The notes under the pieces are model-generated. The model was given only the letters and a program-made list of their open reading frames with translations, was not told where the DNA came from and ran no database searches. This document shows positions 5,971-31,900 of a stretch of DNA of 64,000 bases, one piece after another. Numbering within the stretch: the stretch's first letter is position 1; the number at the start of each line of letters is the position of its first letter. Origin of the DNA: Chelydra serpentina (lineage: Eukaryota; Chordata; Testudines; Chelydridae); the NCBI GenBank assembly GCA_037349315.1, contig JBAIAC010000018.1:372001-436000 (forward strand), read 5' to 3'. Made by a program: the position numbers and the translations under genes.

Positions 5971-6375
5971 CACATCTCTAGGAGATGCCAGTCACCCAGC
6001 TACCATAGTATACTCTAGAATGCTATTGTATCATTCAAATAAATACAGTGGTTTCAAAACTAACTCAAGAGTTTCACCTACTCAATGGCATGAATGTAGT
6101 AAAAACAGGTTGTAAGACTCCTGATGCTTCCAAGAAATAACCAACCTCTACTGGAAAGGGTTATATAACTAATATTTCCAGAACACAAATAAGACTGCAA
6201 AATGAAATTTCAAAGTTTATTGACAGGTGGTATTGTTCAAATGGTAGCAGGCTCCTTGCATCTTGGGACGTCGTCGCGGGGTGTTGTCACTGAAGGGTGT
6301 TTTCTTTTTCCCATAGCAGATGTTGCAGAGTGGTGGGTCGATGACTTGCACAGGAGAATGGGAGAAATCAGGAAA

Positions 6376-6546
6376 TTAAAAACTACTCCTCCTTCTCCTC
6401 CTCCTCCTCCTTCGACCTCTGCGACCTCTCCTCCTTCGGCCATGGCGTCTCCTTCTCCTCCTTCTACGTCGACCCCCGCGGCCTCCCCTTCGTCGCCTTC
6501 TGCGACGGCTCCTGCTTCTGCTCCTGCTGCGTCTGTATCTTGCCAT
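6376..6546 (-). CDS. PRM1: protamine, copy 1 (type I, 56 aa)
   Basis: Encodes a sperm nuclear basic protein that would replace histones or transition proteins and neutralise DNA phosphate in condensing spermatid chromatin. The start MARYRR followed by an SRSRSRS stretch (S7, S9, S11, S13) matches protamine P1 and avian galline; the SR-repeat is the family's usual kinase target. 38 of 56 residues are Arg, in blocks broken by GG at 21-22, GG at 24-25, and HG at 35-36; the tail is SSF. There is no Cys, so no disulfide cross-linking as in placental mammals. The frame is uninterrupted and no intron is needed. The minus-strand TATATAAA lies at 6665-6672 and AATAAA at 6216-6221, giving a predicted mRNA of about 440 nt. 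It is the last, most 3' copy of the array. The gene name rests on similarity, not on synteny. Confidence 0.9.
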   Translation of the reverse strand: MARYRRSRSRSRSRRRRRRRGGRGGRRRRRRRRRHGRRRRGRRGRRRRRRRRRSSF

Positions 6547-6664
6547 TTACAGAGAAGATTTTGGCTTTCAAGATCTCTGCAGCGGGAGCACCACCTCCGT
6601 AGGAGGCGGCCAACCTGTCTGGTGGGATTTCCTTAGCTTGTGAGTTCAGCTGGCAGCTCTGGCC

Positions 6665-6960
6665 TTTATATAGAGGGGCTGATAATTGTGACAAAAACCA
6701 ACCAAGTCACTCACCTGTGATAAACTATAATAGGCTCGTTCATATATGGGCATCAGTTTTACTGTAGACCAAAGTGTCCATATAAGGGGAAAAAAAAGCT
6801 AATGTGACCATATATGTCCACTAAATACCACTATCAACTAAAATGACTATATAAGGAAAAAGCCACATGTTTTGACCCTATATGGCCATAAAATGGCTCT
6901 CTTTGTTGAAATGACCATATAAGAAAAAACCTGAAGTATGGATAACAAGCAACTATATCT
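6665..6960 (-). promoter_or_regulatory. protamine copy 1 promoter with CArG-like cluster
   Basis: TATATAAA at 6665-6672 sits 126 nt upstream of the ATG. Upstream of it lie repeated CC(A/T)6GG-like words: 6741-6750, a perfect CCATATAAGG at 6778-6787, 6808-6817, 6847-6856, 6877-6885 and 6915-6924. The same cluster recurs in all copies. A perfect CRE (TGACGTCA) is not seen here. SRF binding is only an inference from the motif. Confidence 0.7.
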
Positions 6961-7313
6961 TTTAAAGTGACCACATGAAGGAAATTAAATAGCCTTTAAT
7001 ATAACTTTTATTAAAATTTGAATATGTGCATTAGTCTTAATATTTGAGCCATTCATCAAAGTCCCAAGTCTGGTGGAATGATAAATGCTTCATCAATCTT
7101 CAAAAGAGGGGGACCACTATTCATTCCAAATATTAAATGAAAAATATCTATAAGACTCTCTAAAGAGCATAGGCATTTAGGATCATTTTAAAACTGAGTA
7201 TCCCTTACTGTAAGTGAGATTGGGGGGAAAAATCTGTAGGAGGGAACAGAACACACTTGTGCAGAATAACTGCAAGAATTGCGTGTGTGTTGATTGGATT
7301 TCTTGATGGGCTT

Positions 7314-7487
7314 CATAGAATATCAGGGTTGGAAGGGACCTTAGGAGGTCATCTAGTCCAACCCCCTGCTTAAAGCACGACCAATCCCCAATTTTTGCCC
7401 CAGATCCCTAAATGGCCCCCTCAAGGATTGAACTCACAACCCTGGGTTTAGCAAGCCAATGCTCAAACCACTGAACTATCCCTCCCC
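7314..7487 (-). mobile_element. tRNA-derived SINE with CR1-like tail (tortoise Pol III/SINE type)
   Basis: On the minus strand the element starts GGGGAGGGATAGTTCAGTGG, carrying an A-box-like TAGTTCAGTGG, then a B-box-like GAGTTCAATCC, and ends with a CR1-type tail containing 'ggttggactagatgacctcc' and 'attctatg'. This build (tRNA head, CR1 tail) is known from cryptodiran turtles. The same position in the other spacers (e.g. near 12630) is uninterrupted, so this is a younger insertion. Confidence 0.85.
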
Positions 7488-8289
7488 GCATGTTGCAGTG
7501 GGAGAAAGAATATTCTGGATCCTGAATGTTTACAAAGCAGGGATAGCTCACTTTACCATTAGGGAGAATGCTTTTGAAAAATCTCTCCGCAATTACCATG
7601 ACCTCTCTTTGCAGCGAAAAGAGAGGAGAATTAAAAGTAAATGAAGTCAAATGAAAAGAAACATGGTAAATATTCAGGTCATTTTGGTAGGGACGAATAT
7701 TTTTGAGTTCGGTTCCAAAAGGGATTATTTTAAACACAGATATCTCAAAACTGCACAATCCACTTATAAAACTGTCAATAACATTTCTACTGGGAAGAGC
7801 AATCACGAAACACACTCCCTAGTTAATACAGATTTATGTTTTCCAGGTTTTCCTAGACAAGTAATCTTTCCCCTCATGAAAATTTTGCTCCGTTAGAGGA
7901 CCTGGGAATGACTGTCTGTCTTTATCATAGATGTAACAGATTTACCCCTGACAATATAGCTGCTCTAAGAGACAGTCTACATGGGAACACTCCATGGGGG
8001 GCAGGGTAAAGTAAAATTCAAAAAAATCCAGGATCATCAAGAGTTTTGAATATTAATCCACCATTATGTTTGTATGCTGATGAAAAGAGGATTGTAACAT
8101 TCATTTCTCTAGAGAGAAATTCCCATCTGCAACCACTATAATGGTGTGGATTTGTTTGTTTCACATCAATAATTATATGTTTCTCCAAATAAGTAAAATA
8201 TCTAATATTTGTATGTTAAAGTAGCTTGATCCTTTTCATAAAATAAGTAATTAATCATAATTAATGTTAGCGGAATCTAGAATTGTTCG

Positions 8290-8950
8290 ATATTTGATGG
8301 AAAGATGATTGTTTTAACCAGCTTCAAAAGAGGGACCATGTTTTATTCCAATTATTAAATAAAAATATCTTTAAGGATCTCTAAAGCATTGGCTTTTAGG
8401 ATCATTTTTAAAGCCTCAAATCCTTAGTGTGCATGAGCTTGGAGGTTGGGGAGATGGGGACTCTCTCAGCGGGAAAAGAACACACCATGGAAAATAACTG
8501 CAAGAATTGTGTGTGTGCTCTGATCTGATTTCTTAATAGTCTTCTTGTATTGCAGAGGGATAAGGAGTGTTTTGGACCCTGAATGCTTACAAAAGAGGGA
8601 TAATTTTCTTTTAACTTTGGGAGGATGCTTTTGAAAAATCACCTGTTCCTTTTATGACTATGACATCTCTTTTCAGAGGAAAGAGGAGAATGAAAGGTGA
8701 GTAAGATCTAATCAAAATCCACACAGACAGAATCCAGCCATGATTTTAGGGACAAATCTTTCTTGGTTAAATTCCAAAATGGATGACTTTTAACACGTAT
8801 CTCAAAATTGCACAATCTATGTCCTTAAAACAATGAAGAATGTTTCTACTGAGAAGAATAATCTCAAAACATACTCGCAAATTATTCTGGATTTGGATTT
8901 TCCATGTTTTCCAAACCATGTGTCTTTCCCCTCAAGAATATTTTTCCTTG
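8290..8950. repeat. internal diverged duplicate of 7020-7900
   Basis: The words 'cttcaaaagagg', 'ttaggatcattttt', 'gagggataa' and 'tgcttttgaaaaatc' occur in the same order as in 7100-7900, with many differences and without the SINE. No gene lies between the two copies. It looks like the distal upstream region of a lost array unit. Confidence 0.6.
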
Positions 8951-10024
8951 GTACGGGTGCATAGGAATGAATGGCTTTCCTTATTGGCAATGTTGTTGTA
9001 GCCATGGTGGTCCCAAAAAATTAGAGCGACAAGTGTTTGAGCTACACAGAGCTCCTCTTCAGTTCATAAGCGTTTGTCTCTTTCACCAACGGAAGTTGGT
9101 CCACTAAAAGATATTATCTCACTCACCTTGTCTTTTCTTATGACACATACAAGTTTCATACCTCTAGCACACTAAGGAAAGATTTTCAAAGTGGAGAGTT
9201 TGTTTTTAGCAGGGATTAGGAAAATCGAATCTCACACTGGTTTAATTTATGTCAGCGGGACAGATTCTCCCACTGTTTATACAATGGTGTCATTCCACTG
9301 ACCTCATTACAGTTACACCTAATACAGATATGGTAATTTTCTAACACAACAGTGGTGGGATCCTATTTTAGACCTCCTTATGTGGGATAAAAATGAATTG
9401 ATCACTGGACTAGAAATTGGGGGTCACTTAGGGACCAGGGATTATGACCTGATCCTTCCTTGTCAATATGAGAAACTGAGGACAGTTCCAATTAGTAAAA
9501 AAGATATACATACTGTTTCAAAGGGGCTAATGGATAGATGCTTCAATATTGTTAATGGTGATGAAGAAAAAAGCAGAGATGTTCAATCGATATTTCTGTT
9601 CAGTATTTGGAAAGAAATCAGGTAATGAACTACTTTACCATCCCCCCATAGTCACTAACAGAGAGGGGGAAATCATCTACTGGTGCTAAATATTTTTAAC
9701 TCGTCAGGCCCAGATAACGAACTCAGAAGTCCTAAATGAGCTGGTTGAGGAAAGATCTCTAGTCCACTGATATTACATTTTAATATAGCTTGGAACACAC
9801 AGGGAAATTCCAGATTAAGTGTTCTGATATTGTACCATTATTCACAAAAGACGAGCTGTATAAACTGGGTAACAGTAGGCTGCTTAGCCTGAAATCAGAA
9901 CTGGGCAAATGACCAGAAAAACTGATATGAGATTCAATCAGTAAAGAGCTAAATGTTGGGAATATTGTTCTCATCAGTCAACAACACAAGTTTTCTTTTC
10001 TCCCAGATACAGAAAAAAAAAGCA

Positions 10025-10195
10025 GTGAGATATATATATATATAGTCTTTTGTATGGTGAAAAAAATTTCCCTGGAACCTCACCCCCTCATTTACATTAA
10101 TTCTTATGGGGAAATGGAATTAATTTAACATCGTTTCACTTAAAGTCGCATTTTTCAGGAACATAACTACAATGTGAACTGAGTTACTGTACTAC
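10025..10195. mobile_element. short insertion in spacer A, possible MITE
   Basis: This block replaces sequence found at 21560-21720 in the other type A spacer. It includes an AT-run and the segment 'ttcttatggggaaatgg...gcatttttcaggaacataac', which resembles a short interspersed repeat. Ends and class are unclear. Confidence 0.35.
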
Positions 10196-11031
10196 GTCAT
10201 TCAGATGAATACAATGGTTTCAGAACTAACTGCAGGGTTCTTTACTGGAGGCAAATATCTAGGAATAAGTGGTCAATATTCATCTGGGCAAAAGGTCTTA
10301 ACCACAAGGGACACAAGGTTCCACAGTTAGACCGAAGGCTAATAGATTGAAGTAGCAATATGAGATGGGAAAATATTTAAGGTGTTAGTCTCAGCCTGAA
10401 GAATTTGTCGGGATGTGCACCAAAATGACAGGTAGGTAAAGGAATGAATATCAGTGAAAATATAATTCTGTTCTAAAATCAGAACAGACCAGAAGTATGT
10501 TGCAGCACTGTTCAAATTCCCCTCCCTGAAGGAATGGAATGAACAATAGTGAAATTATACCATAATAAAATCACAAATGCTTTCCCCTGGAACAGGGCAG
10601 CCTATTTCACCTGGGGGCTCAGAGATGTGTGAAAAAATATGATCGAAGATGGAGAAATTTCCATATAAAAAGATGAAAAAATTGGGATGGTTTATAAAGA
10701 AAAAAAACCAGATTCACAAGAGTGCAAACTAGAGAAAAAAGTAGGGATGGATGTAGTAAAAAGGATGTGAGAAGCCTGATGCGTCCAGGAAACACCAGCT
10801 TCTGAGAGGGTGTAGCCTAGATGTCTTGCTCCTACCTGTTTCCTATCCCACAAAGGGCTTGGAGTCCTTCTATGGTAAATCACCTTGTGCAATTTACAGT
10901 GTTCTTTTCCACCACCTTTACAGGCCATGCAGCCTCATCCTAACAGTAACACGGACACCTCAGTCCTCAGACAAGCAGGGGAGAGGTCTGTCATGATTCT
11001 GACTCTACAAGCGTACCAGACAGACGCGCTA

Positions 11032-11207
11032 GGGTGACCAGATGTCCCGATAAAATCAGGACTGTCCCGATTTTTCATCTTTTGTCCCGTGTGCCGACTG
11101 ATGCTTGGTACGACTTTGGTCCCGATTTCCGGTCTTCTTCCGGTTTTTTTTGATCAACAACTTCGGGCGGGAAGTCCCGATTTTCGGGTCTTCTCATCTG
11201 GTCACGC
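11032..11207. mobile_element. TA-flanked MITE (Tc1/mariner-like)
   Basis: Ends GGGTGACCAGATG and CATCTGGTCACGC are near-perfect inverted repeats flanked by TA on both sides (11030-11031, 11208-11209). A second member of the family is at 57412-57616. The matching site in the other type A spacer (about 22512) is empty. Confidence 0.7.
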
Positions 11208-11685
11208 TAAGACAGGCCAGCCTTGATCTCACCCCTCTCACTCTCTTCCTCCCCTTCACTTCCTTGTGTCTTTTGTACCATCTGGGCTAATGAGTTAATT
11301 AGCCTTTTAACCCTCTCAGGCCCATCCCAATCTATCACCTGAGTGCAGTTCCCATAGTCAGGTGTGCTCAGGACAACTAACTGGAGCCTTAGTGATCATA
11401 CTGGGGATTCAGCTGCTCTCACAGAGGATTAGGAAGAAACTGCACCCTGTCTAAAATACAACCCCTATTTTCTAAATACAGCCAAAACACAAGGACCCAA
11501 TGAGACTGCAAATGAAATTTCAAAGTTTATTGACAGGTGGTATTGTTCAAATGGTAGCAGGCTCCTTGCATCTTGGGATGTCATCGTGGGGTGTTATCAC
11601 TGAAGGGCTGTTTTTTTTTGCCATAGGAGATATTGCAGACTGGTGGGTCGATGACTTTCACAGGAGAATGGGAGAAATCAGGAAA

Positions 11686-11856
11686 TTAAAAACTACTCCT
11701 CCTTCTCCTCCTCCTCCTCCTTCGACCTCTGCGACCTCTCCTCCTTCGGCCATGGCGTCTCCTTCTCCTCCTTCTACGTCGACCCCCGCGGCCTCCCCTT
11801 CGTCGCCTTCTGCGACGGCTCCTGCTTCTGCTCCTGCTGCGTCTGTATCTTGCCAT
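11686..11856 (-). CDS. PRM1: protamine, copy 2 (type I, 56 aa)
   Basis: The coding sequence is identical, base for base, to copy 1 as read by eye, so it makes the same 56-residue arginine-rich sperm protein (MARYRR start, SR-repeat to S13, two GG breaks, HG at 35-36, SSF end, no Cys). The 5' leader differs slightly: a CCGGAA just before the ATG puts G at -3, a better initiation context than the T of the other copies. TATATAAA is at 11975-11982 and AATAAA at 11526-11531. Its 3' UTR shows a few differences (for example GATGTCATCGTGGGG near 11577). Spacer A lies 3' of it and spacer B 5'. Identity of the CDS while spacers differ points to selection or gene conversion. Confidence 0.9.
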   Translation of the reverse strand: MARYRRSRSRSRSRRRRRRRGGRGGRRRRRRRRRHGRRRRGRRGRRRRRRRRRSSF

Positions 11857-11974
11857 TTCCGGAGAAGATTTTGGCTTTCAAGATCTCTGCAGCAGGAGCA
11901 CCACCTCCGTAGGAGGCAGCCAACCTGTCTGGTGGGATTTCCTTAGCTTGTGAGTTCAGCTGGCAGCTCTGGCC

Positions 11975-12270
11975 TTTATATAGAGGGGCTGATAATTGTG
12001 ACGAAAACCAACCAGGTCACTCACCTGTGATGAACTATCATAGGCTTGTTCACATATGGGCATCAATTTTACTGTATAGCAAAGCGTCCATATAAGGGAA
12101 AAAAAAGGTAATGTGACCTTGTATGTCCGCTAAATACTACTATCAACTGAAATGGCTATATAAGGAAAAAGCCACATGTTTTGACCCTATATGGCCATAA
12201 AATGACTCTCTTTGTTGAAATGACCATATAAGTAAAAAACCTGAAGTATGGATAGCAAGCAACTATATCT
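11975..12270 (-). promoter_or_regulatory. protamine copy 2 promoter
   Basis: TATATAAA at 11975-11982, 126 nt before the ATG, followed upstream by the same set of CATATA/CTATATAAGG/CCTATATGG words as copy 1, including CCATATAAGG near 12089. Confidence 0.65.
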
Positions 12271-13117
12271 TTTAAAGTGACCACATTACGGAAATTAAAT
12301 TGACTTTAATATAACTTTTATTAAAATAAGTGATCAATGCTCATGTGAATTACTCTTAATATAAGAGCCATTCATCGAAGTCCCAAGTCTGGAGGCATGA
12401 TAAATGCTTTATCAATCTTCAAAAGAGGGTGACCACTATTAAATCCAAATATTAAATGAAAAGTATCTTTAAGACTCCCTAAAGAGAATAGGGATTCCGG
12501 ATCATTTTAAAACTGAGTATCCCTTACTGTAAGTGAGATTGGGGGGAAAAAATCTGTAGAAGGGAAGAGAACACACTGGTGCAGAATAACTGCTAGAATT
12601 TCATGTGTGTTGATCTGATTTCTTGATGGCTTCTCATGTTGCAGAGGGAGAAAGAATATTCTGGATCCTGAATGTTTACAAAGCAGGGATAGCTCACTTT
12701 AACTTTAGGGAGAATACTTTTGAAAAATTTCTCCGCAATGACCAGGACCTGTCTTTGCAGTGGAAAGAGAAGAGAATTAAAAGTAAATAAAGTCCAATTA
12801 AAAGAAACATGGTAAATATTCAGGTAATTTTGCTAGGGACAAATATTTTTGAGTTGGGTTCCAAAAGGGATTATTTTAAACACAGATATCTCAAAACTGC
12901 ACAATCCTTTTATAAAACTGTCAATAACATTTCTACTGGGAAGAGCAATCACTAAATACACTCCCCAGTTAATACCGAAGAATGTTTTCCAGGTTTTCCT
13001 AGACAAGTAATGTTTCCCCTCACGAAAATTTTGCTCCGTTAGAGGACCTGGGAATGACTGTCTGACTTTATAACAGATGCAACAGATTTACCCCTGAAAA
13101 TATTATAACTGCTCTAA

Positions 13118-13395
13118 GAGATAGTCTACATGGGAACACTCCAGAAAGATATTCCAAATTAACTGAAGGTGTGTATGTAATGTGGATTAATTAAACTGCA
13201 TTGCTTTCAGAATTAGAGTTGCTTTATTCTGTTTAGCTTATTTTAGTTTAGCTCAACCGAATTAAGGACAGCCACTTTAATTCTGAATGAGAGTATCCAC
13301 ACAGGAATTTAATGCAATTTAACTAATCCTCTTTAAAGTAATACTTGTAGTTAATTCAGATTAATTTTTCTGAGTGTTCCTGTGTAGACAAGTCC
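13118..13395. mobile_element. Harbinger-type MITE in spacer B
   Basis: Inverted ends GAGATAGTCTACATGGGAACACTC-like (left) and the complement of GGACTTGTCTACACAGGAAC (right) are flanked by TAA on both sides (13115-13117, 13396-13398). It occurs at the same place in the other type B spacers; in spacer A only its left end remains (about 7967-8000). So it was present before the A/B split. Confidence 0.7.
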
Positions 13396-14556
13396 TAAAT
13401 TTCTAACAGCATGAGAGGTGTACCACAACTCAGAGACAAATGCTGAAGACATTTCAGTTGCTAGGCCTCGTAAGGCACTAGCCCTAGTTGGTTCCGCTAA
13501 CAGCTTTAATGCATGGCTAAAGTGAAGAGGTATTTTTCTAGAGCGGACAAAAAAGGGAAGAGTTGCAAATACCCCAAGTACTGTGGCTTAAACAGTTACA
13601 ACTCCGGAGAAACAAGAGCAGTTCTTATTTGGGCCGTTGGTTGGGAGTGGGGTGGAAGAAGTGGCAATCTAGGGTCTTCGGGCCGAGACACTGCTGTATA
13701 GTCTAGTCCAGTCTCTTATTCCAAGCAAACAGGAGTTTACAGGTTTGTAGTTAGTGCTATCTCTCACTGGAGTCTGTCGGCAAGGGTTTCCTGCTCAGTC
13801 GCTGTTCCTTCCACACCCACAGACCAACGCCCAGCTGCAATCTCCGTCAGCCACACCCTATTCCATATGCAGTTCCTCAGCTTCTGATTATGCCTGCCCT
13901 AGACACAGTTCCCTGGGGATTTCTCCATGGATCCAGCTTCTCAGACGCTCCTGGTTTCCAAGCCACCCCCAGAAGAACTAGGGTCCTGGTTTTGGGTCTT
14001 TCCTTCTACCTGGCCAGGGGAAGGGGATGTACCGTGAGCAAAAGGAGAATGGAAATGGTATATTCTTCCATACCAGGTGCATTACTTCCTTAGCACCATA
14101 AAGAAAGGTTTCAATGTGGAGGTTTTTTGTGTGTGGGTTAGTTTGTTTTCATCAGGGATATGGAAAAATCTAATCTCACACTGCTTTACATGAGGAATAA
14201 CACAAATCTATGGACCTGATTCTGATCTCACGCTGTTCATACAGTGGTGTCATTCCATTACCTGAGTGTCATTACCCCTAACTTATAGATGTTAATTTTC
14301 TAACACAAAAGGTATTTCACCCAACGTGAGGTAACTAGTTTAGGCTTCAGTATGATGGGGGCGGGGGGGAGAGGAACTGATCACTGGAATGGAAATTGGT
14401 AGAATCTTCATGGCGCAGTCTCAACCAGAAATAAACATACATGGCCCGTGATGGACGTGGCCAGGCCTAGTTTGAGTGAGTGGGTGCTGTGACCTTGTGC
14501 TCCGGGTCATACTGCCACTCTCTCAAATTTGTCTCGCTGTCCTTCCGTCACCACAG

Positions 14557-14663
14557 GGGGGCAGCTGGAGGAAAACTGTGTGCTGTGACCTCATGGACCA
14601 ATTCACGATGCCTGGAATGGGGAGTCGGGCACAGACCTGAAGAAGAGGAGCTGCTGCTGTGGG
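14557..14663 (+). other. exon-like block with splice-site consensus, function unknown
   Basis: A 107-nt stretch preceded by a pyrimidine-rich run ending CACCACAG and followed by GGTGAGT is repeated at 18529-18635 and 26140-26246. The same length and both splice-like sites are kept, and a remnant is present near 28830-28860. Frames through it differ in where they stop and no start codon or domain is evident. It could be a non-coding exon, a relic exon carried into the array, or chance. Confidence 0.25.
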
Positions 14664-15706
14664 GTGAGTTCACCTTTCAACCACCCCCTATGATTTTCCC
14701 TCCACACCAGGACAGTGAGCGATGTGGAAACTTCCCACAACCCACTGGTCACAACCCACTGGTTGGGAAACAAATTGCGTTAGAGGATATTTTTGTGGGT
14801 GTGTCAAAAAATACGGACTTACCCAGCCAGCAATGTAAACAGTTACATTATTGTGTCATTCAAATAATTAAAGGAGGTTCAGAACTAATCGCTACATGCT
14901 TGGTCCAGCACATACTTTTCTGCAGGGAAACAGCTCGGCATAAAATTGGTCATTTTTCATATCTTGGCAAGGCCATATAGTCCACAGTAAGGCTATAGGC
15001 TCATAGATTAACCTGAAAATATGGATATGTTGGAGCATGTATATAGGCTGTTTGTCAGGATTTGCAGCAAAACTGATAGGTGAGAGAAGAAATGGGATAT
15101 TACTGAAAATATAATGCCCATTATAAAATCAGACGACACTAGAAAAATGTTGTAGCAGTGTTCCAAAAAATCTCAAGAAGAATGGAATGGATAATACCGA
15201 AAATAAGCCATCTTCAAATCATAAGACTGTCTAAGAACAGTGTTCTCATTCTGGGCAGCTTATCTCATTTGGATTTAAGAGATGGCTTAAAACAAATGAT
15301 CAAAGGCAGAGAAACTTTCATATGAAAAACAAACAAACTTGGGACTGTTTATTGAGGAAAAAAGAAGTACATGAATGATAGTGTAGAAGGTAGTAAAAAG
15401 GATGTAAGAATCCTGATCCTTCCAGGAAATTACCAAGCTCTGACTGAGACAGCTAGGAAAAAACTGTAAACAGTCATAAATACACCCAATATTCCCAAAC
15501 CTATGCAAAGACCCAATGAGACTGCAAAATGAAATTTCAAAGTTTATTGACAGGTGGTATTGTTCAAATGGTAGCAGGCTCCTTGCATCTTGGGACGTCA
15601 TCGCGGGGTGTTGTCACTGAAGGGTGTTTTCTTTTTGCCATAGCAGATGTTGCAGAGTGTTGGGTCAATGACTTGCACACACAGGAGAATGGGAGAAATC
15701 AGGAAA

Positions 15707-15880
15707 TTAAAAACTACTCCTCCTTCTCCTCCTCCTCCTTCGACCTCTCCCTCTACGACCTCTCCTCCTTCGGCCATGGCGTCTCCTTCTCCTCCTTCTA
15801 TGTCGACCTCCGCGGCCTCCCCTTCGTCGCCTTCTACGACGGCTCCTGCTTCTGCTCCTGCTGCGTCTGTATCTTGCCAT
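15707..15880 (-). CDS. PRM1: protamine, copy 3 (type II, 57 aa)
   Basis: A sperm nuclear DNA-condensing protein as in copy 1, but of the second sequence type. Relative to type I it has His in place of Arg at 27 and an extra Arg-Gly near residues 43-46 (RGRG), giving 57 residues with 37 Arg. The SR-repeat (S7, S9, S11, S13), the HG at 35-36 and the SSF tail are kept, and Cys is absent. One Arg codon in the N-terminal block is CGT instead of CGC (silent). TATATAAA is at 15998-16005, 125 nt from the ATG because the leader lacks one T (near 15891), and AATAAA is at 15543-15548. The 3' UTR has a small CA insertion near 15676. Spacers on both sides are type B. Confidence 0.9.
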   Translation of the reverse strand: MARYRRSRSRSRSRRRRRRRGGRGGRHRRRRRRRHGRRRRGRRGRGRRRRRRRRSSF

Positions 15881-15997
15881 TTACGGAGAAGATTTGGCTT
15901 TCAAGATCTCTGCAGCGGGAGCACCACCTCCGTAGGAGGCGGCCAACCTGCCTGGTGGGATTTCCTTAGCTTGTGAGTTCAGCTGGCAGCTCTGGCC

Positions 15998-20245: not shown

Positions 20246-20249
20246 AAAT

Positions 20250-22800
20250 GACCACATAATGGAAATTAAATTGACTTTAATATAACTTTTATTAAAATAA
20301 GTGATGAATGCTCATGTGAATTAGTGTTAATATTAGAGCCATTCATCAAAGTCCCAAGTCTGGTGCAATGATAAATGCTTTATCAATCTTCAAAAGCTGT
20401 ACTGAGAAGAATGATCTTAAAACATACTCGCAAATTATTCTGGATTTGGATTTTCCATGTTTTCCAAACCATGTGTCTTTCCCCTCAAGAATATTTTTCC
20501 TTGGTACGGGTGCATAGGAATGAATGGATTTCCTTATTGGCAATGTTGTTGTAGCCATAGTGGTCCCAAAAAATTAGAGTGACAAGTGTTTGAGCTACAC
20601 AGAGCTCCTCTTTAGTTCATAAGCTTTTGTCTCTTTCACCAACGGAAGTTGGTCCACTAAAAGATATTATCTCACTCACCTTGTCGTTTCTTATGACACA
20701 TACAAGTTTCATACCTCTAGCACACTAAGGAAAGATTTTCAAAGTGGAGAGTTTGTTTTTAGCAGGGATTAGGAAAATCTAATCTCACACTGGTTTAATT
20801 TATATCAGCGGGACGGATACTCCCACTGTTTATACAATGGTGTCATTCCACTGACCTCATTACAGTTACACCTAATACAGATATGGTAATTTTCTAACAC
20901 AACAGTGGTGGGATCCTATTTTAGACCTCCTTATGTGGGATAAAAATGAATTGATCACTGGACTAGAAATTGGGGGTCACTTAGGGACCAGGGATTATGA
21001 CCTGGTCCTTGTTAATATGAGAAACTGAGGACAGTCACAATTAGTAAAAAAGATATACATGCTATTTCAAAGGGGCTATTGGATAGATACGCAATATTGT
21101 TAATGGTGATGAAGAAAAAAGCAGAGGTGTTCAATTGATATTTCTGTTCAGTATTTGGAAAGAAATCATGTAATGAACTACTTTACCATCCCTCCATAGT
21201 CACTAACAGAGGGGGGGAAATCATTTACTAGTGCTAAATATTTTTAACTGGGCACGCCCAGATAACTTGAACTCAGAAGTCCTAAATGAGCTGGTTGAGG
21301 AAAGATCTCTAATCCACTGATATTAAATTTTAATATAGTTTGGAACACACAGGGAAATTCCAGATTAAGTGTTCTGATATTGTACCATTATTCACAAAAG
21401 ATGAGCTGTATAAACTGGGTAACAGTAGGCTGCTTAGCCTGAAATCAGAACTGGGCAAATGAACAGAAAAACTGATATGAGATTCAATCAGTAAAGAGCT
21501 AAATGTTGGGAATATTATTCTCATCAGTCAACAACACAAGTTTTCTTGTCTCCCATATACAGAAAAAAAAGAGAGCAGGTGACACCGATGAGCTTCTCCT
21601 ATTTGAGACTCTCTGAACCAGGTTGTTCAATCTCAGAGGAGCCAAAACCCTTAGGGAATGTCCGTGGGTGTGCCAAGAAATACCCACTCACCCAGCCAGC
21701 TGTAAACTGTTCCACTACTACGTCATTCAGGTGAATACAATGGTTTTAGAACTAACTGCAGGGTTCTTTACTGGAGGCAAATATCTAGGAATAAGTGGTC
21801 AATATTCATCTTGGCAAAAGGTCTTAACCACAAGGTTCCATAGTTAGACTGAAGGCTAAGAGATTGAAGTAGCAATATGAGATGGGAAAATATTTAAGGT
21901 GTTAGTCTCAGCCTGAAGAATTTGTCAGGATGTGCAACAAAATAACAGGTAAGTAAAGGAATGAATATCAGTGAAAATATAATGCTGTTCTAAAATCAGA
22001 ACAGACCAGAAATATGTTGCAGCACTGTTCAAATTCCCCTCCTTGAAGCAATGGAATGGACTATATTAAAATATGCCATAATAAAAATCACAAATGCTTT
22101 CCCCTGGAACAGGGCAGCCTATCCCATCTGGGGGCTCAGAGATGTGTGAAAAAATAGGATCAAACTTGGAGAAATTTCCATATGTAAAGATGAAAAAATT
22201 GGGATGGTTTATAATGAAAAGAAAACCAGATACACAAGAGTGCAAACTAGAGAAAAAAGTAGGGATGAATGTAGAAAAAAGGATGTGAGAAGCCTGATGA
22301 GAGGGTGTAGCCTAGTGGTCTTTCTCCTACCTGCTTCTTATCCCACAAAGGGCTTGGAGTCCTTCTTCTGGTAAATCACCTTGTGCAATTTACAGTGTTC
22401 TTTTCCACCACCTTTACAGGCTATGCAGCCTCATCCCAACAGTAACACGGACACCTCAGTCCTCAGACAAGCAGGGGAGAGGTCTCTTATGGCTGTGACT
22501 CTACAAGCGTGCCAGCCAGCCTGCCTATCTGCCTTGGTCTCACCCCACTCACTCTCTTCCTCCCCTTCACTTCCTTCCTTGTGTCTTTTGTACAATCTGG
22601 GCTAATGAGTTAATTAGACTTTTAACTCTCTCAGGCCCCTCCCAACCTATCACCTGAGTGCAGTTCCCATAGTCAGGTGCGCTCAGAGCAACTAACTGGA
22701 GCCTCACTGATCATAGTGCGGGTTCATCTGCTCTCACGGAGGATTAGGAAGAAACTGCACCCTGTCTAAAATACAACCCCTATTTTCTAAATACAGCCAA
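20250..22800. repeat. array spacer type A, second copy (internally deleted)
   Basis: Matches 8840-11480 of the first type A spacer. Near 20396 the sequence jumps from the equivalent of about 7115 to about 8842, a deletion of roughly 1.7 kb. It lacks the SINE and the TA-flanked MITE of the first copy. No gene was recognised. Confidence 0.7.
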
Positions 22801-23000
22801 AACACAAGGACCCAATGAGACTGCAAATGAAATTTCAAAGTTTATTGACAGGTGGTATTGTTCAAATGGTAGCAGGCTCCTTGCATCTTGGGATGTCATC
22901 GCGGGGTGTTGTCACTGAAGGGTGTTTTCTTTTTGCCATAGCAGATGTTGCAGAGTGGTGGGTCGATGACTTGCACAGGAGAATGGGAGAAATCAGGAAA

Positions 23001-23168
23001 TTAAAAACTACTCCTCCTTCTCCTCCTCCTCCTTCGACCTCTACGACCTCTCCTCCTTCGGCCATGGTGTCTCCTCCTCCTCCTTCTACGTCGACCCCCG
23101 CGGCCTCCCCTTCGTCGCCTTCTGCGACGGCTCCTGCTTCTGCTCCTGCTGCGTCTGTATCTTGCCAT
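23001..23168 (-). CDS. PRM1: protamine, copy 5 (type I, 55 aa)
   Basis: Type I sperm protamine with Arg at 27 and no extra Arg-Gly. It is the shortest copy: one AGG codon is missing from the last arginine run, leaving 55 residues with 36 Arg. Codon 34 is CAC, so His-His-Gly replaces Arg-His-Gly at 34-36. The SR-repeat is complete and Cys absent. TATATAAA is at 23287-23294, 126 nt before the ATG, and AATAAA at 22841-22846. Spacer A lies 3' of it, as for copy 2, and the sequence 3' of the AATAAA (22740-22840) closely matches that of copy 2, so the two share a recent origin. Confidence 0.9.
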   Translation of the reverse strand: MARYRRSRSRSRSRRRRRRRGGRGGRRRRRRRRHHGRRRRGRRGRRRRRRRRSSF

Positions 23169-23286
23169 TTACGGAGAAGATTTTGGCTTTCAAGATCTCT
23201 GCAGCGGGAGCACCACCTCCGTAGGAGGCAGCCAACCTGTCTGGTGGGATTTCCTTAGCTTGTGAGTTCAGCTGGCAGCTCTGGCC

Positions 23287-23590
23287 TTTATATAGAGGGG
23301 CTGATAATTGTGACAAAAACCAACCAGGTCACTCACCTGTGATGAACTATAATAGGCTCGTTCACATAAGGGCATCAATTTTACTGTGTAGCAAAGTGTC
23401 CATATAAGGGGGGGGAAAAAGCTAATGTGACCATTTATGTCCACTAAATACCACTATCAATTGAAATGACTATACAAGGAAAAAGCCACATGTTTTGACC
23501 CTATATGGCCATAAAATGACTCTCTTTGTTGAAATGACCATATAAGTAAAAAGCCTGAAGTATGGATAGCAAGCAACGATATCTTTTAAA
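23287..23590 (-). promoter_or_regulatory. protamine copy 5 promoter
   Basis: TATATAAA at 23287-23294; upstream CCATATAAGG near 23400 followed by an expanded G run; the other CArG-like words are kept. Confidence 0.65.
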
Positions 23591-24422
23591 GTGACCATAT
23601 AACAGAAATTAAATAGACTTTAATATAACTTTTATTAAAATAAGTGATCAATGCTCATGTGAATTAATCCTAATATTGGAGTCATTCATCAAAGTCCCAA
23701 GTCTGGAGGCATGATAAATGCTTTATCAATCTTCAAAAGAGGGAGACCACTATTAATTCCAAATATTATATGAAAAATATCTTTAAGACTCTCTAAAGAG
23801 CATAGGCATTTAGGATCATTTTTAAAACTAAGTATCCTGTACTGCAAGTGAGATTGGGGGAAAAAATCTGTAGGCGGGAACAGAACACTCTTGTGCAGAA
23901 TAACTGCAAGAATTGCTTGTGTGTTGATCTGATTTCTTGATGGGGTTCTCAGGTTGCAGAGGGAGAAAGAATATTCTGGATCCTGAATGTTTAGAAAGCA
24001 GGGATAGCTCTATTTACCTTTAGGGAGAATGCTTTTGAAAAATCTCTCCGCAACGACTATGATGTCTCTTTGCAGCGGAAAGAGAGGAAAATTAAAAGTA
24101 ATTAAAGTCCAATTAAAAGAAACATGGTAAATATTCAGGTAATTTTGCTAGGGACAAATATTTTTGAGTTCGGTTCCAAAAGGGATAATTTTAAACACAG
24201 ATATCTCAAAACTGCACAATCCATTTATAAAACTGTCAATAACATTTCTAGTGGGAAGAGCAATCACTAAACACACTCCTTAGTTAATACAGATTTATGT
24301 TTTCCTAGACAAGTAATCTTTCCGCTCATGAACATTTTGTTCAGTTAGAGGACTTGGGAATGACTGTCTGTCTTTATCACAGATGCAACAGATTTACCCT
24401 GAAAATATTATAGCTGCTCTAA

Positions 24423-24700
24423 GAGACAGTCTTCATGGGAACACTCCAGAAAGATATTCCAAATTAACTGAAGGTGTGAATGTAAAGTGGATTAGTTATA
24501 CTGCATTGCTTTCAGAATTAAAGTGGCTTTATTCCGTTTAGCTTATTTTAGTTTAGCTAAACCGAATTAAGGACAGCCTCTTTAATTCTGAATAAGAGTA
24601 TCCACACAGGAATTTAATGCAATTTAACTAAACCTCTTTAAAGTAATACTTGTAGTTAATTCCGATTAATTTTCTTGGGTGTTCCTGTGAAGACAAGTCC
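24423..24700. mobile_element. Harbinger-type MITE, spacer B copy 3
   Basis: Same ends and position as 13118-13395, with TAA on both sides. Confidence 0.65.
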
Positions 24701-24930
24701 TAAATTTCTAACAGCATGAGAGGTGTACCACAACTCAGAGACAAACGCTGAAAACATTTCAGTTGCTAGGCCTGGTAAGGCACTAGCCCTAGTTGGTTCC
24801 CCTAACAGCTTTAATGCATGGCTAAAGTGAAGAGGTATTTTTCTAGAGCTGACAAAAAAGGGAAGGGTTGCAAATACCCCAAGTACTGTGGCTTAAACAG
24901 TTACAATTCTGGAGAAACAAGAGCAGTTTT

Positions 24931-25190
24931 TATTAGGATTAATTCACATGAGCATTGATCACTTATTTTAATAAAAGTTATATTAAAGTTTTTTAATTTC
25001 CATCATGTGGTAACTTTAAAAGATATAGTGGGTTGCTATCCATACTTCAGCATTTTTACTTATATGGTCATTTCAATAAAGAGAGCCATTTTGTGGCCAT
25101 ATAGGGTCAAAATGTGTGGCTTTTTCCTCATACAGTCATTTCAATTGATAGTGGTATTTAGCGGACATACATGGTCAAATTAGCTTATTT
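24931..25190 (+). repeat. inverted copy of protamine upstream region
   Basis: About 260 bp match, in reverse complement, the upstream region of copy 6 (about 27690-27950). Variants shared only with that copy, such as the complement of 'caacccactatatc' and 'ttaccacatgatgg', show the relation. It lies at a point where the other B spacers read straight from 'gagcagttcttat' into 'ttgggcc'. It carries CArG-like words but no TATA box or coding part. Confidence 0.85.
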
Positions 25191-27259
25191 TTTGGGCCCC
25201 TGGTTGGCAGTGGGGTGGAAGAAGTGGCAATCTAATAGAGGATTAAGATTATTCGGGCCTAGACACTGCTGTATAGTCTAGTCCAGTCTCTTATTCCAAG
25301 CAAACAGGAGTTTACAGGTTTGTAGTTAGTGGTGTCTCTCACTGGAGTCTGTCGGCAAGGGTTTCCTGCTCAGTCGCTGTTCCTTCCACACCCACAGACC
25401 AACGCCCAGCTGCAATCTCCGTCAGCCAAACCCTATTCCATATGCAGTTCCTCAGCTTCTGATTATGCCTGCCCTAGACACAGTTCCCTGGGGATTTCTC
25501 CATGGATCCAGCTTCTCAGACGCTCCTGGTTTCCAAGCCACCCCCAGAAGAGCTAGGGTCCTGGTTTAGGGTCTTTCCTTCTACCTGGCCAGGGGAAGGG
25601 GATGTACCGTGAGCAAAAGGAGAATGGAAATCGTAGTTTCTTCCATATCAGGTGCATTACACCCTTAGCACCAAAAGGAAAGTTTTCAAAGTGGAGGTTT
25701 TTTGTGTGTGGGTTAGTTTGTTTTCATCAGGGATTTGGCAAAATCTAATCTCACACTGCTTTACATGAGGAATAACACAAGTCCATGGACCTGATTCTGA
25801 TCTCATGCTGTCCATACAGCGGTTTCATTGCATTACCTGAGTGTCGTTACCCCTATCTTATAGATGTTAATTTTCTAACACAAAAGGTATTTCACCCAAC
25901 GTGAGGTAACTAGTTTAGGCTTCAGTATGATGGGGGAGTGGGGGAGAGGAACTGATCACTGGAATGGAAATTGGCAGTTGCTTAGAATCTTCATGGCACA
26001 GTCTCAACCAGAAATAAACATACATGGCCCATGATGGACGTGGCCAGGCCTAGTTTGAGTGAGTGGGTGCTGTGACCTTGTGCTCCGGGTCATACTGCCA
26101 CTCTCTCAAATTTGCCTCGCTGTCCTTCCGTCACCGCAGAGGGGCAGCTGGAGGAAAACTGTGTGCTGTGACCTCATGGACCAATTCACGATGCCTGGAA
26201 TGGGGAGTCGGGCGCAGACCTGAAGAAGAGGAGCTCCTGCTGTGGGGTGAGTTCGCTTTTCAACCCCCCCCTATGATTTTCCCTCCACACCAGGACAGTG
26301 AGCGATGTGGAAACTTCCCACAACCCACTGGTTGGGAAACACGTTGCTTTAGAGGATATTTTTGTGGGTGTGTCAAAAAATACGGACTTACCCAGCCAGT
26401 AATGTAAACAGTTACATTATTGTGTCATTCAAACAATTACAGAAGTTTCAGAACTAATGGCTACATGCTTGGTCCAGCACATACTTTTCTGCAGGCAAAC
26501 AGCTAGGCATAAAATTGGTAATTTTTCAAATCTTGGAAAAGCCATATGGTCCAAAGTAAGGCTGTAGATTGACCTGAAAATATGCATATGTTGGAGAATG
26601 TATATAGGCTGTTTGTCAGGATTTGCAAGAAACCTGATAGTTGTGAGAAGGAATGGGATATTATTGAAAATATAATGGCCATTATAAAATGAGAAGGAAC
26701 TAGAAAAATGTTGCAGCACTGTTCCAAAAAATCTCAAAAAGAACGGAATGGATAATATCAAAAATATGCCATCATCAAATCATAAGACTAAGAACAGTGT
26801 TCACATTCTGGGCAACTTCTCTTATCTGGGTTTCAGAGATGGCTAAAAACTAATGATCAAAGGCAGAGAAACGTCCATATGAAAAAGAAAAAAGATTGAG
26901 ACTATCGATTGAGGAAAAGAGAAGTACATGAATGATAGTGTAGAAGGTAGTAAAAAGGATGTAAGAATCCTGATCCTTCCAGGAAATAACTAACCTCTGA
27001 CTGAGACGGCTAGGAAGAAACTGTAAACAGTCATAAATACACCCAATATTTCCAAACCTATGCAAAGACCCAATGAGACTGCAAAATGAAATTTCAAAGT
27101 TTATTGACAGGTGGTATTGTTCAAATGGTAGCAGGCTCCTTGCATCTTGGGACGTCATCGCGGGGTGTTGTCACTGAAGGGTGTTTTCTTTTTGCCATAG
27201 CAGATGTTGCAGAGTGGTGGGTCGATGACTTGCACAGGAGAATGGGAGAAATCAGGAAA

Positions 27260-27433
27260 TTAAAAACTACTCCTCCTTCTCCTCCTCCTCCTTCGACCTC
27301 TCCCTCTACGACCTCTCCTCCTTCGGCCATGGCGTCTCCTTCTCCTCCTTCTATGTCGACCTCCGCGGCCTCCCCTTCGTCGCCTTCTGCGACGGCTCCT
27401 GCTTCTGCTCCTGCTGCGTCTGTATCTTGCCAT
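27260..27433 (-). CDS. PRM1: protamine, copy 6 (type II, 57 aa)
   Basis: Type II sperm protamine with His27, the RGRG insertion, 57 residues, 37 Arg and no Cys. The predicted protein is identical to that of copy 3; the DNA differs by a silent CGC/CGT change in the N-terminal arginine block. The SR-repeat with four serines is intact. TATATAAA is at 27552-27559, 126 nt before the ATG, and AATAAA at 27100-27105. It is the first intact copy at the right, that is, the 5'-most in the direction of transcription. Two dead promoter relics follow upstream. Confidence 0.9.
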   Translation of the reverse strand: MARYRRSRSRSRSRRRRRRRGGRGGRHRRRRRRRHGRRRRGRRGRGRRRRRRRRSSF

Positions 27434-27551
27434 TTACGGAGAAGATTTTGGCTTTCAAGATCTCTGCAGCGGGAGCACCACCTCCGTAGGAGGCAGCCAA
27501 CCTGTCTGGTGGGATTTCCTTAGCTTGTGAGTTCAGCTGGCAGCTCTGGCC

Positions 27552-27865
27552 TTTATATAGAGGGGCTGATAATTGTGACAAAAGCCAACCAGGTCACTCA
27601 CCTGTGATGAACTATAATAGGGCATCAAAATAGTTCACATAAGGGCATCAATTTTACTGTATAGCAAAGTGTCCATATAAGGAAAAAAAAAAGCTAATGT
27701 GACCATGTATGTCCACTAAATACCACTATCAATTGAAATGACTATAGAAGGAAAAAGCCACACATTTTGACCCTATATGGCCATAAAATGGCTCACTTTG
27801 TTGAAATGACCATACAAGTAAAAATGCTGAAGTATGGATAGCAACCCACTATATCTTTTAAAGTT
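27552..27865 (-). promoter_or_regulatory. protamine copy 6 promoter
   Basis: TATATAAA at 27552-27559. A short partial duplication near 27618-27650 repeats 'gggcatcaa'. CCATATAAGG near 27672 and the rest of the cluster are present. Confidence 0.65.
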
Positions 27866-27899
27866 ACCACATGATGGAAATTAAAAATACTTTAATATA

Positions 27900-29150
27900 A
27901 CTTTTATTAAAATAAGTGATCAATGCTCATGTGAATTAATCCTAATATTGGAGTCATTCATCAAAGTCCCAAGACTGGTCGAATGATACATGCTTTATCA
28001 ATCTCCAGTGGAGGGGTCCACTATTAATTCCAAATATTAAATGAAAAATATCTTTAAGACTCTCTAAAGAGCATAGGCTTTTAGGACCATTTTTAAAACT
28101 AAGTATTCCCTTACTGTAAGTGAGATTGGGGGGAAAAATCTGTAGGAGGGAACAGAACACACTTGTGCAGAATAATTGCAAGAATTGCCTGTGTGTTGAT
28201 CTGATTTCTTGATGGGCTTCTCATGTTGCAGAGGGAGAAAGAATATTCTGGATCCTGAATGTTTACAAAGGAGGGATAGCTCACTTTATCATTAGGGAGA
28301 ATGCTTTTTAAAACTCTCTCCGTAATGACCAGGACCTCTCTTTGCAGTGGAAAGAGAGGAGAATTAAAAGTAAATAAAGTCCAATTAAAAGAAACATGGT
28401 AAATATTCAGGTAATTTTGCTAGTGAGAAATATTTTTGAGTTGGGTTCCAAAAGGGATTAATTTAAACACAGATATCTCAAAACTGCACAATCCATTTAT
28501 AAAACTGTCAATAACATTTCTACTGGGAAGAGCAATCACTAAATACACTTCCTGGTTAATACAGATTTATGTTTTCCAGGTTTTCCTAGACAAGTAATCT
28601 GTCCCCTCACAAAAATTTTGCTCCGTTAGAGGACCTGGGAATGGACTGTCTGTCTTTATCACAGATGCAACATATTCACCCTTGAAAATATTATAGCTGC
28701 TCTGAGAGACAGTCTACATGGCAACACTCCAGAAAGATATTCCAAATTAACTGAAGGTGTGAATGTAAAGTGGATTAGTTAAACTGCATTGCTTTCAGAA
28801 TTAGAGTGGCTTTAATCAGTTTAGCTTATCTGCAGAAGAGGAGCTGCTGCTGTGGGGTGAGTTCTCTTTTCACTCACACACACACCCACACACACACACA
28901 CACACCCCTAGACTTCCTACAACCCACTGGTCACAACCCACTGTTTGGGAAACACATTGCTTTAGAGGATGTTTTTGTGGGTTTGAAAAAATACTGACTT
29001 ACCCAGCCAGTAACGTAAACAGTTACATTATTATGTCATTCAAATAATTACAGAAGGTTCAGAACTAATCGCTACATGCTTGGTCCAGCACATACATATC
29101 TGCAGGCAAACAGTTAGGAATAAAATTGGTAATTTTTTGTATCTTGGCAT
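27900..29150. repeat. truncated type B spacer
   Basis: Follows other B spacers to about 28828, inside the MITE, then jumps to sequence equivalent to about 14640, a deletion of about 1.4 kb. A CA-rich microsatellite lies at 28871-28907. Confidence 0.65.
28871..28907. repeat. (CA)n microsatellite
   Basis: Nearly pure CA dinucleotides interrupted by CCC. Confidence 0.9.
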
Positions 29151-29154
29151 GGAT

Positions 29155-29500
29155 ATTGGCTGTCAAGATCTCTGCAGTGAGAGCACCACCTCTGTCGGAG
29201 GCAGCCAACCTGTCTGCTGGGATTTCCTTAGCTTGTGGGTTGAACTGGTAGCTCTGGCCATCATATAGAGGGGCTGATAACTGTGACAGAAACCAGCCAG
29301 GTCACTCACCTGTGATGACCAACAATGGGCTTGTCCATATATGGAAAACACCAGCTGTCCTGATCATGCTATTAAATAGCACTTTCCATTGAAATGACTA
29401 TATAAGGACAAAGCCATAAGTTTTGACCCTATAGGGACATAACATGGTGTTTTGTTGAAATGACAGTATAACAACAAAAACACCCTGAAGTTTGGAGGAT
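29155..29500 (-). pseudogene. protamine relic 7: leader and promoter only
   Basis: From 29155 the sequence matches the 5' leader and promoter of the intact copies ('tcaagatctctgcag', 'ccaacctgtctg', 'tttccttagcttgtg', 'gaggggctgataa'). The coding part and 3' UTR are missing: at about 29155 it is joined directly to spacer sequence equivalent to about 14965. The TATA position reads CATCATATAG on the plus strand, so TATATAAA is lost. Diverged CArG-like words continue to about 29490. This is a dead copy. Confidence 0.8.
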
Positions 29501-29613
29501 GCACCGAAACGTGAAACTATGGAATTGTTTGTCTCTACATTACCCTTGCCTTGTTGGATTAATTTTTAAAATGTTTGGGTGATTTTATTTAAACTGTGGA
29601 TCTATTCTGGCTA

Positions 29614-29792
29614 CCTGTCTTTGGTGGAATTTCCTGAGCTTGTTAGTTGAGCTGGCATGCTGAGCGTTATATAGAAAGGCTGATAAGTATGACCCACATT
29701 GCTGTATTATTCAGCTATGATAAACTAGAATTTAGCAATATATGGCCATCAAATTTACTGTATAGCAAAGTGTCCATGTAAGGGAAAAAATA
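29614..29792 (-). pseudogene. protamine relic 8: older promoter fragment
   Basis: More diverged match to the same leader and promoter ('cctgtct..ggtggaatttcct', 'gcttgttagttgagctggca', 'atatagaaaggctgataa', 'tactgtatagcaaagtgtccat'). The minus strand keeps TATATAAC at the TATA position. No coding sequence is attached. Confidence 0.7.
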
Positions 29793-29799
29793 GATTTTT

Positions 29800-31900
29800 C
29801 CCCTTTTATAAATACTTTGGAAGTTAATTTATGTAGGTCACCCTTATAAGAGGGGAAAGCAGTGACCAGTTGATATCATATTGATATTATCTCTTCACTA
29901 CATAATGGCAACACACATCATGACACCCAACCATCAGAAATGAAAAGCTGCCCTTCCTAATTTATTCTACTTTGATTACTAACCATGTGTGCATTAAGTC
30001 CAGGGGAAGGCACTAACTCAGTCCTAATTTTGTCTTCTTGATTTTGAACATTTAGGTACCTAAAATGGTTGTTTTTAATATCACGTGAAATGTTTTGCAT
30101 CCAGCGTCGTTTTATTGCAAAGTGTCAACAAGTAACTTATGGCCTCACAAGCTTTCACAGTTGTTTCCTGAGGGCAATTGAAACAGTATGCGATTTACAA
30201 GTTAAAATAGATGGCTGTTTTATGCCGTGTGTAACTTTTTCCTGCAGCAAATGAATAACTTCAATATTGTTGTCAAATGCACACTGTAATATGTTGGGGT
30301 TATAAAATAATTAAATGTTGAAATGTTGTGATCTGTGTGTGTCTTTGAGAGGACTAAAGATATTTGTGAAAAAATTGTCAGAAGCTTAAAACCAAACCCA
30401 TGATTTGAATACAGTGGGTCAAATTCCCCTTTCCATTTCAGGCAAGCAGGAATGTAACCCATTACATTTCTAGTAAAAAGGAAGGTACTTTTACCATTAG
30501 AACGAACAGTCTTTCAATAGCAGCCATTACAATTTGAAAATAATAGGCTTGATTCTCCATTCATACCAGTTTTATATCACTATAATTCTATAAACTCTTA
30601 TGGAGCTAACAACTCCCAATTGACACTGGTATAACTGAGAGGATAATCAAGCCAATCCTTTTGCACTGGAAATGTCTAAATTAAATATGTTATAGACTTC
30701 TCCACTTAATATTCTACAAAATCTTCTTGGCTTTTTCCCTCTTCTCAGTCACCTGTGTAATGCGTACCATTAGTCATGCACTCACACTTGCCTTTAGGGA
30801 AATAGTCTTCTCAAGAGCCAAATTAATGAAACTGGCAGCAAAAGGACAACTATATTGCCAGCGCTCCTGTCGTGCCTTTATTACAGCTGACCAGGCAAGC
30901 CTCAGAATAAGGAACCTCTCAATAGAATCTTAGTACTGTGTGTTCCATTTGGACAAGGTGGTCTTTCAAACTGATGTGGCTTCCACCCCCAAAGTACCCC
31001 ATCTTCCATAAATCCCAAGGTAGCCCTGCTGTCCTTGTGCTTATCCAAAGCATTCACAGTCAAAGAAGAGACTGTAGAACTTGCTGGATGTTCACTGGCC
31101 CTCAAAATATAGACAGATTACACTCAGTTCCTCAGGAAATCCTAGGCCCTTTCATGTTTTTCCACTCATGTATGGAAGCTGAGAAAGCTTGCAAATCATC
31201 TATCTCATGATGCATTAGATGGAACATCTTGGGGGCACAAAGCAAAAAAACCTTACCTCTTCATTAAACGTCAGGGTCCTAAGTGAGGGATGACAACATA
31301 TATTTTGGAGGGCTAGTATGCACAAATTGACCTAGTCACTGACCGTTTTAATCACAAGAAGCAAACATAGGCTCTAAATAACAGATCCACCTCAATAACC
31401 AAACAGGCCACTGTAGAAGGAACTGTTTGGAGATCAATAAATGGCTATGTGAGAAGAAAGTCATTAAGAGGCAAAATATTTCTCTCCTATGTCATAGGAT
31501 CAGGTCATCTCCCCCAACCTCCATCCTAGATATCATTGTGTACGTGCTTCATTAATTGGCTGTTTCCGTTGGTGGCGGCTCAGTTTGGTTGATATGTTTT
31601 ATTTATTTTCACACCTCTCTCCGCCTTCCTTCTGTTTTCCCACATTCCCTACACCCCCTGACCCCCAGTCTGTTTCCTCCTGCCCAGGTTTTCCTGCTTC
31701 TTCATAGTTTCCTGTCCAACTTCCAAACAACAGAGCCACATTACAGTCACATTATCTGATGGCAGCCCAGGTTCCATTTCTTCAGGAAAAAGATGGGAGT
31801 CATCAGTCAACTTTACTGCACAAATCCTCTTTCTCCACATTGTTTCTCTGGCTTTCATTGAAAAAATCAAACAGTGCAGTATAAAGCACGTGGGTTACAC
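29800..31900. other. intergenic, no gene recognised
   Basis: Non-coding sequence right of the array. Open frames are short and unlike known domains. Confidence 0.5.

Follow-up and report, generated by a model that had tools for sequence, protein, structure and literature searches.

Does a run of short, arginine-rich reading frames in a turtle genome represent a family of working protamine genes, and if so, how did it form and what keeps its members alike? The frames lie in a 64-kb stretch of contig C18 (positions 372001-436000; hereafter the window), part of an assembly of 2.28 Gb in 806 contigs. A listing of frames down to 40 residues across the window contains six minus-strand frames starting with MARYRR, designated copies A to F, each 55-57 codons long and all intact. 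These six are the only frames in the window that exceed 40% arginine (six-frame scan, frames of at least 20 residues from the first ATG after a stop). Searching the whole genome with the copy A protein returned six matches, the six array copies and no others (7 of 7 candidates scored). The encoded proteins carry 36-38 arginines among their 55-57 residues (65-68%), one tyrosine and one or two histidines each, and neither cysteine nor lysine. An SRSRSRS-type stretch is found in every protein, in the variant form IRSRSRS in copy D. Proteins A and B are identical, as are C and F; a Ser7 to Ile change sets D apart from F, E has one residue fewer than A, and the coding DNA of A and B shows 0 differences in 171 positions. 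We consider it very probable that the locus is a tandem array of six intact, single-exon turtle protamine genes, expressed in spermatids, built by crossing-over and kept uniform.

Each copy is equipped with a TATA box (TATATAAAG), which starts at -126 bp relative to the ATG (-125 bp in C), and with an AATAAA signal at +154 bp past the stop in five copies; C contains an insertion of 4 bp and has its signal at +158 bp. From 25 bp past the TATA start to the protamine ATG, no other ATG occurs in any of the six. In all copies, a complete single-exon frame stands between TATA box and AATAAA, the layout of avian-type intronless genes, and introns in the untranslated regions (UTRs) are likewise probably absent, as judged by the TATA-to-AATAAA spacing. 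Promoter, coding, and 3'UTR pieces used as BLAST queries against the 264 kb surrounding the array (E 1e-4) detected the six genes and two promoter/5'UTR remnants, both at the upstream end of the array; neither remnant had a coding or 3'UTR match at this threshold, and the resemblance of relic 1 to the genes ends, by eye, a few codons past the ATG. The initial annotation had described six intact minus-strand protamine frames, each with a TATA box and poly(A) signal at fixed distance, accompanied by relics. All six frames are indeed open, the spacing holds in all six apart from the shifts of 1 and 4 bp in C, and the relics are two real remnants consisting of promoter and 5'UTR only. It was also right that a 60-residue cutoff misses all six genes and calls antisense frames in their place, as a plus-strand antisense frame of 144-148 residues overlaps each of them. 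An alternative minus-strand frame, running from an internal ATG of the protamine coding sequence into the 3'UTR, spans 59-69 residues in five of the six copies and is shorter in B. Both kinds of frame were set aside as genes: one of each was compared with Pfam and had no match, and the alternative frame is further disfavored by its shortening in copies B and C. They are probably by-products of repetitive codons rich in AGG and AGA.

The MARYRRSRSRSRS start and the composition, with more than half of the residues arginine in all six, identify the products as amniote arginine-rich protamines. In 6/6, the sequence opens with MARYR and continues into a putative SR phosphorylation stretch, with Ile in place of the first Ser in D. 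Mammalian protamines tend toward a MARYR start, according to PMC7126135. By these sequence features, the six proteins are assigned to the MARYR-type arginine-rich protamines of amniotes. Two turtle copies were also aligned to other protamines and compared with 5000 shuffles; the likeness to chicken galline was equaled by 0 and 1 of the shuffles and that to human PRM1 by 3 and 4, while the likeness to salmine, equaled by 882 and 556, is no better than composition. Galline shares the MARYRRSR start (8/8), agrees at 12 of the first 14 positions, and is likewise short, intronless, arginine-rich, and devoid of cysteine. It has several tyrosines, in contrast to the single tyrosine, the glycine and histidine breaks, and the longer arginine runs of the turtle proteins. 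The chicken carries two near-identical protamine genes, as compared to six copies here. Human PRM1 shares the MARYR start, an SR-type N terminus, 11 of the first 14 residues, and arginine blocks, but possesses cysteines and one intron, both lacking in the turtle genes, and lies at another address. Salmonid protamine families are similarly multicopy, short, intronless, and arginine-rich, but are not known to have the MARYRR start. Reptile protamines were reportedly described at the protein level by Hunt et al. in 1996; these probably belong to this class of protein and may come from turtles. In a whole-length comparison of SOCS1 protein (best 120 of 268 matches), that of this genome was 97% identical to a 14-member cluster named from Platysternon megacephalum, followed by tuatara (89%), the side-necked turtle Pelusios castaneus (87%), Chinese alligator (87%), and zebra finch (85%). 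The protamine identity and the turtle origin proposed at the outset are thus upheld, the former by the MARYRR start, arginine content, and likeness to galline and PRM1, the latter by the SOCS1 identity to the Platysternon cluster. The gap between 97% and the 87% of the side-necked Pelusios suggests that the animal is probably a hard-necked (cryptodiran) turtle.

Self-BLAST resolved two blocks, one with genes A, B, and C and the other with D, E, and F (Table 1). Identity between array units is mostly 90-96%, falling to about 72-75% for older pieces. Sequence upstream of A matches sequence adjacent to D (8847-10020 with 20400-21570, 96%; 10190-11023 with 21716-22519, 90%). At 93% identity, the B unit (11220-13629) corresponds to the E unit (22531-24934), and C-containing sequence (13622-17265) to the F-containing stretch 25185-28829. 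The gene-side part of D (17541-20396) instead aligns with 13602-16446 in the C unit at 92%, such that the D unit consists of C-type gene-side sequence joined to A-type upstream sequence (20400-22519). This mixture is expected from unequal crossing-over, and exchange of multi-gene blocks may have turned an A-B-C-like block into the present A-B-C-D-E-F order. A diverged array-unit fragment, an inverted gene-upstream fragment, and the two promoter remnants are products of earlier array turnover.

The copies are far less alike outside the genes than within them. Across the upstream flank (positions -560 to -165), all 15 pairs differ by 7.0-10.6%, with a mean of 8.7%; the mean pairwise difference falls to 2.8% for promoter plus 5'UTR, 3.0% for coding sequence, and 3.2% for the 3'UTR. 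Variable sites make up 20/331 ungapped columns of promoter plus coding region and 75/373 of the upstream flank (Fisher p = 3.3e-8); adding the 3'UTR to the former gives 35/492 (p = 1.6e-8). Copies A and B differ at 33/376 upstream-flank sites despite their identical coding regions, and the chance of zero change in 171 sites at 8.7% divergence is ~2e-7. The difference between flank (8.7%) and gene body (~3%) argues for constraint on, or conversion of, the gene body. Farther upstream, 10/15 pairs align at 91-95% and the five pairs with D do not align; downstream, 4/15 pairs align at 88-91%, six at 66-75%, and the five pairs with A do not align. A tree of the upstream flanks has short inner branches with weak support (0.50-0.87). 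At assumed trial rates of 0.4 to 1.2e-9 per site per year, the mean flank difference corresponds to roughly 40 to 115 million years, and past conversion would make the true ages larger.

Several observations weigh against a functional protamine array. None of the six proteins matched Pfam, PF00260 (Protamine_P1) included; PF00260 gave 0 matches over the genome, its control being silent too; a protein library returned none of 990 candidates at E 10; and a PDB search with the protein gave 0. The Ser7 to Ile change of copy D falls inside the SR stretch, and silent sites and UTRs are conserved like the protein, a pattern that is not specific to selection on protein or dosage. Galline, used as a control in the protein library, was also missed (none of 170 candidates), and the empty database searches therefore carry little weight. 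They are nonetheless what would be seen if the frames were low-complexity GA-rich repeats and not genes, as would be the AGG/AGA-rich coding strand. We attach next to no credence to that explanation, given that arginine is encoded by five codons, that promoter and poly(A) signal are positioned, that the gene region is conserved while the flank drifts, and that 40 first-order Markov shuffles of the window yielded 0 frames of at least 50 residues with at least 40% arginine. The region being a tandem repeat, alleles or repeated contig pieces might instead have been placed in tandem by the assembler. Such an artifact is extremely improbable: units differ in length and composition and sit on a 36.8-Mb contig, and the 7-11% flank difference in all 15 pairs is about thirty times the discrepancy of 3e-3 that, according to the painted turtle genome article (PMC4054807), does not exceed what heterozygosity would produce. 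The divergence thus points to old paralogues, not assembly duplicates.

Other explanations concern what maintains six copies. Copy number could be neutral, with one or two copies making the protein and the rest being tolerated duplicates, homogenized by conversion and bringing no dosage advantage. The A/B pair, identical in coding sequence between diverged flanks, the conservation of silent sites and UTRs that conversion would give, and the two relics, which indicate that copies can be lost, are all consistent with this possibility, to which we grant a sizeable minority of our confidence. Retention of frame, TATA box, and poly(A) signal in all six copies despite the flank divergence speaks against it, as does the confinement of both relics to one array end. 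Since silent sites and UTRs are conserved as well, selection and conversion are indistinguishable with these data. The gene body is under constraint or gene conversion, a pattern that fits dosage and also plain, neutral concerted evolution. Selection for dosage, suggested in the initial annotation, is a plausible hypothesis; according to PMC10120018, small protamine dosage changes in humans are associated with infertility. Amplification by genetic conflict, with sperm nuclear basic proteins acting as drivers or suppressors, has been proposed in Drosophila, where 16/20 amplifications are on sex chromosomes and are read as conflict, according to PMC9917458. That article places the Drosophila amplifications mostly at <10 million years and argues that drive is less probable where expression is post-meiotic, as in mammals; the age of the turtle copies and the near-uniformity of their proteins render conflict highly improbable here.

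Returning to the reading as a spermatid protamine array, all or most copies would be transcribed in spermatids, each under its own TATA promoter and as a short mRNA of ~0.45 kb, and the several near-identical copies would jointly supply one type of protein. This 55-57-residue polyarginine product would replace histones and neutralize DNA in the sperm nucleus. A cycle of SR phosphorylation and dephosphorylation is general for protamines, and the N-terminal SR repeat would here be phosphorylated for loading and then dephosphorylated for tight binding; disulfide locking would be absent, given the lack of cysteine. The array would have grown by unequal crossing-over of multi-gene blocks, with gene-body uniformity kept by purifying selection and/or gene conversion and copies lost at the upstream end in a birth-and-death process.

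Mammalian PRM1 adjoins SOCS1 and CLEC16A, and ADH and SNCA are on another human chromosome. In the turtle, the array is flanked on one side by exons of alcohol dehydrogenase and on the other by the final exons of alpha-synuclein. Using human protein sequences as address markers, nine ADH1B-like pieces were found on the plus strand at C18:300.5-342.1 kb (E at most 1.2e-4, best 1.9e-27), two with in-frame stops, and an alpha-synuclein exon on the minus strand at C18:515541-515452 (E 5e-8). A second alpha-synuclein exon, C18:513206-513117, also minus, scored weakly (E 0.05) but contains EEYQDYEPEA. EIF4E and H2AZ1, further markers of the human ADH/SNCA region, had no convincing match near the array, and SOCS1, SNN, DEXI, and LITAF were unmatched at E 0.01 in the 264 kb around it. 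SOCS1 lies on another contig, at C43:14269150-14269770 (plus), with FPL (CLEC16A-type) exons at C43:14557039-14559126 (minus), the same relative orientation as in human. Beside SOCS1, 40 kb on the mammalian-PRM side and 10 kb on the opposite side were scanned for 20-residue stretches with at least 10 Arg+Lys, at least 7 of them Arg. This strict scan, which recovers copies A and B in the window, found 0 stretches in the 50 kb, leaving room for a diverged or more distant gene; a looser scan gave one unremarkable stretch. Weak RMI2-like matches beside SOCS1 (best E 0.01 with low-complexity filter and composition correction off) were gone with filters on and were not used. The array neither sits beside SOCS1/CLEC16A nor has an intron in its coding frames, the two marks by which a PRM1-cluster orthologue would be recognized. 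By genomic position, it is not orthologous to the mammalian PRM1 cluster, in which PRM1 is grouped with PRM2, PRM3, and TNP2 (PMC9917458). As a tentative scheme, possible but not the likelier case, turtle and perhaps all sauropsid protamines may descend from an intronless founder between ADH and SNCA, which arose by retroposition or independently and became, in turtles, an old six-gene concerted array, with none left at SOCS1. Literature searches on turtle, reptile, bird, and vertebrate protamine genes gave no title reporting this array among the best-ranked, and a search on protamine together with alpha-synuclein, alcohol dehydrogenase, and synteny found nothing. Contig C18 opens in a GC-rich satellite with periods of 29 and 116 bp; no TTAGGG telomere repeat occurs in C18:1-10 kb, and in the stretches sampled, the same motif fills C18:100-105 kb and part of 200-205 kb. 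The array (C18:378-402 kb) may be among the first genes from the contig end, and unequal exchange near that end would be unsurprising. A long frame of satellite-like content was seen by eye at C18:282850-290316.

Elsewhere in the window, two Harbinger-type transposon frames enclose a tandem repeat (Table 1), and Rfam gave 0 matches at gathering thresholds. By eye, related Harbinger-type frame pairs are present in both flanks of the array, and the left flank holds retroelement gene pieces, polymerase- and integrase-like.

Table 1. Positions of the protamine genes and other features in the window.
Feature	Position	Strand	Details
Protamine gene A	6376-6546	minus	56 residues, 38 Arg; open frame and genome search match
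Protamine gene B	11686-11856	minus	56 residues; open frame
Protamine gene C	15707-15880	minus	57 residues; open frame
Protamine gene D	19652-19825	minus	57 residues, Ser7 to Ile; open frame
Protamine gene E	23001-23168	minus	55 residues; open frame
Protamine gene F	27260-27433	minus	57 residues; open frame
TATA box, A	6664-6672	minus	TATATAAAG
TATA box, B	11974-11982	minus	TATATAAAG
TATA box, C	15997-16005	minus	TATATAAAG
TATA box, D	19943-19951	minus	TATATAAAG
TATA box, E	23286-23294	minus	TATATAAAG
TATA box, F	27551-27559	minus	TATATAAAG
Poly(A) signal, A	6216-6221	minus	AATAAA
Poly(A) signal, B	11526-11531	minus	AATAAA
Poly(A) signal, C	15543-15548	minus	AATAAA
Poly(A) signal, D	19492-19497	minus	AATAAA
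Poly(A) signal, E	22841-22846	minus	AATAAA
Poly(A) signal, F	27100-27105	minus	AATAAA
Relic 1	29152-29344	minus	promoter and 5'UTR, 87.6% identity
Relic 2	29613-29793	minus	promoter and 5'UTR, 74.3% identity, more diverged
Block with genes A, B, C	6188-17265		self-BLAST
Block with genes D, E, F	17541-28829		self-BLAST
Diverged array-unit fragment	8295-8944		72-75% identity to region upstream of genes; older
Inverted gene-upstream fragment between units E and F	24931-25193		89-96% identity, five copies; 96% to 27684-27947
Alternative frame (five copies)	6237-6443, 15598-15777, 19513-19722, 22862-23065, 27121-27330	minus	internal ATG of protamine coding sequence into 3'UTR
Myb/SANT-like frame, Harbinger-type	46906-47598	plus	E 2.4e-22
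Tandem repeat between the two transposon frames	48123-48843		~77 bp spacing
DDE_Tnp_4 transposase frame, Harbinger-type	50456-51745	minus	E 1.3e-36

The array is real, well described from the DNA alone, and of a known kind; the age of the copies, the gene-centered conservation, the evidence of turtle origin, and the non-mammalian address are new relative to the initial annotation. As a caution, a 60-residue cutoff or composition-corrected searches miss genes of this type. The locus adds an amniote case of multicopy protamine genes. Protamines evolve fast, and their low-complexity sequence gives little power on whether those of birds and reptiles share an ancestral locus with those of mammals; the ADH-SNCA address, together with the 50 kb next to SOCS1 in which no strongly arginine-rich frame was detected, opens this question to direct checks in other genomes.

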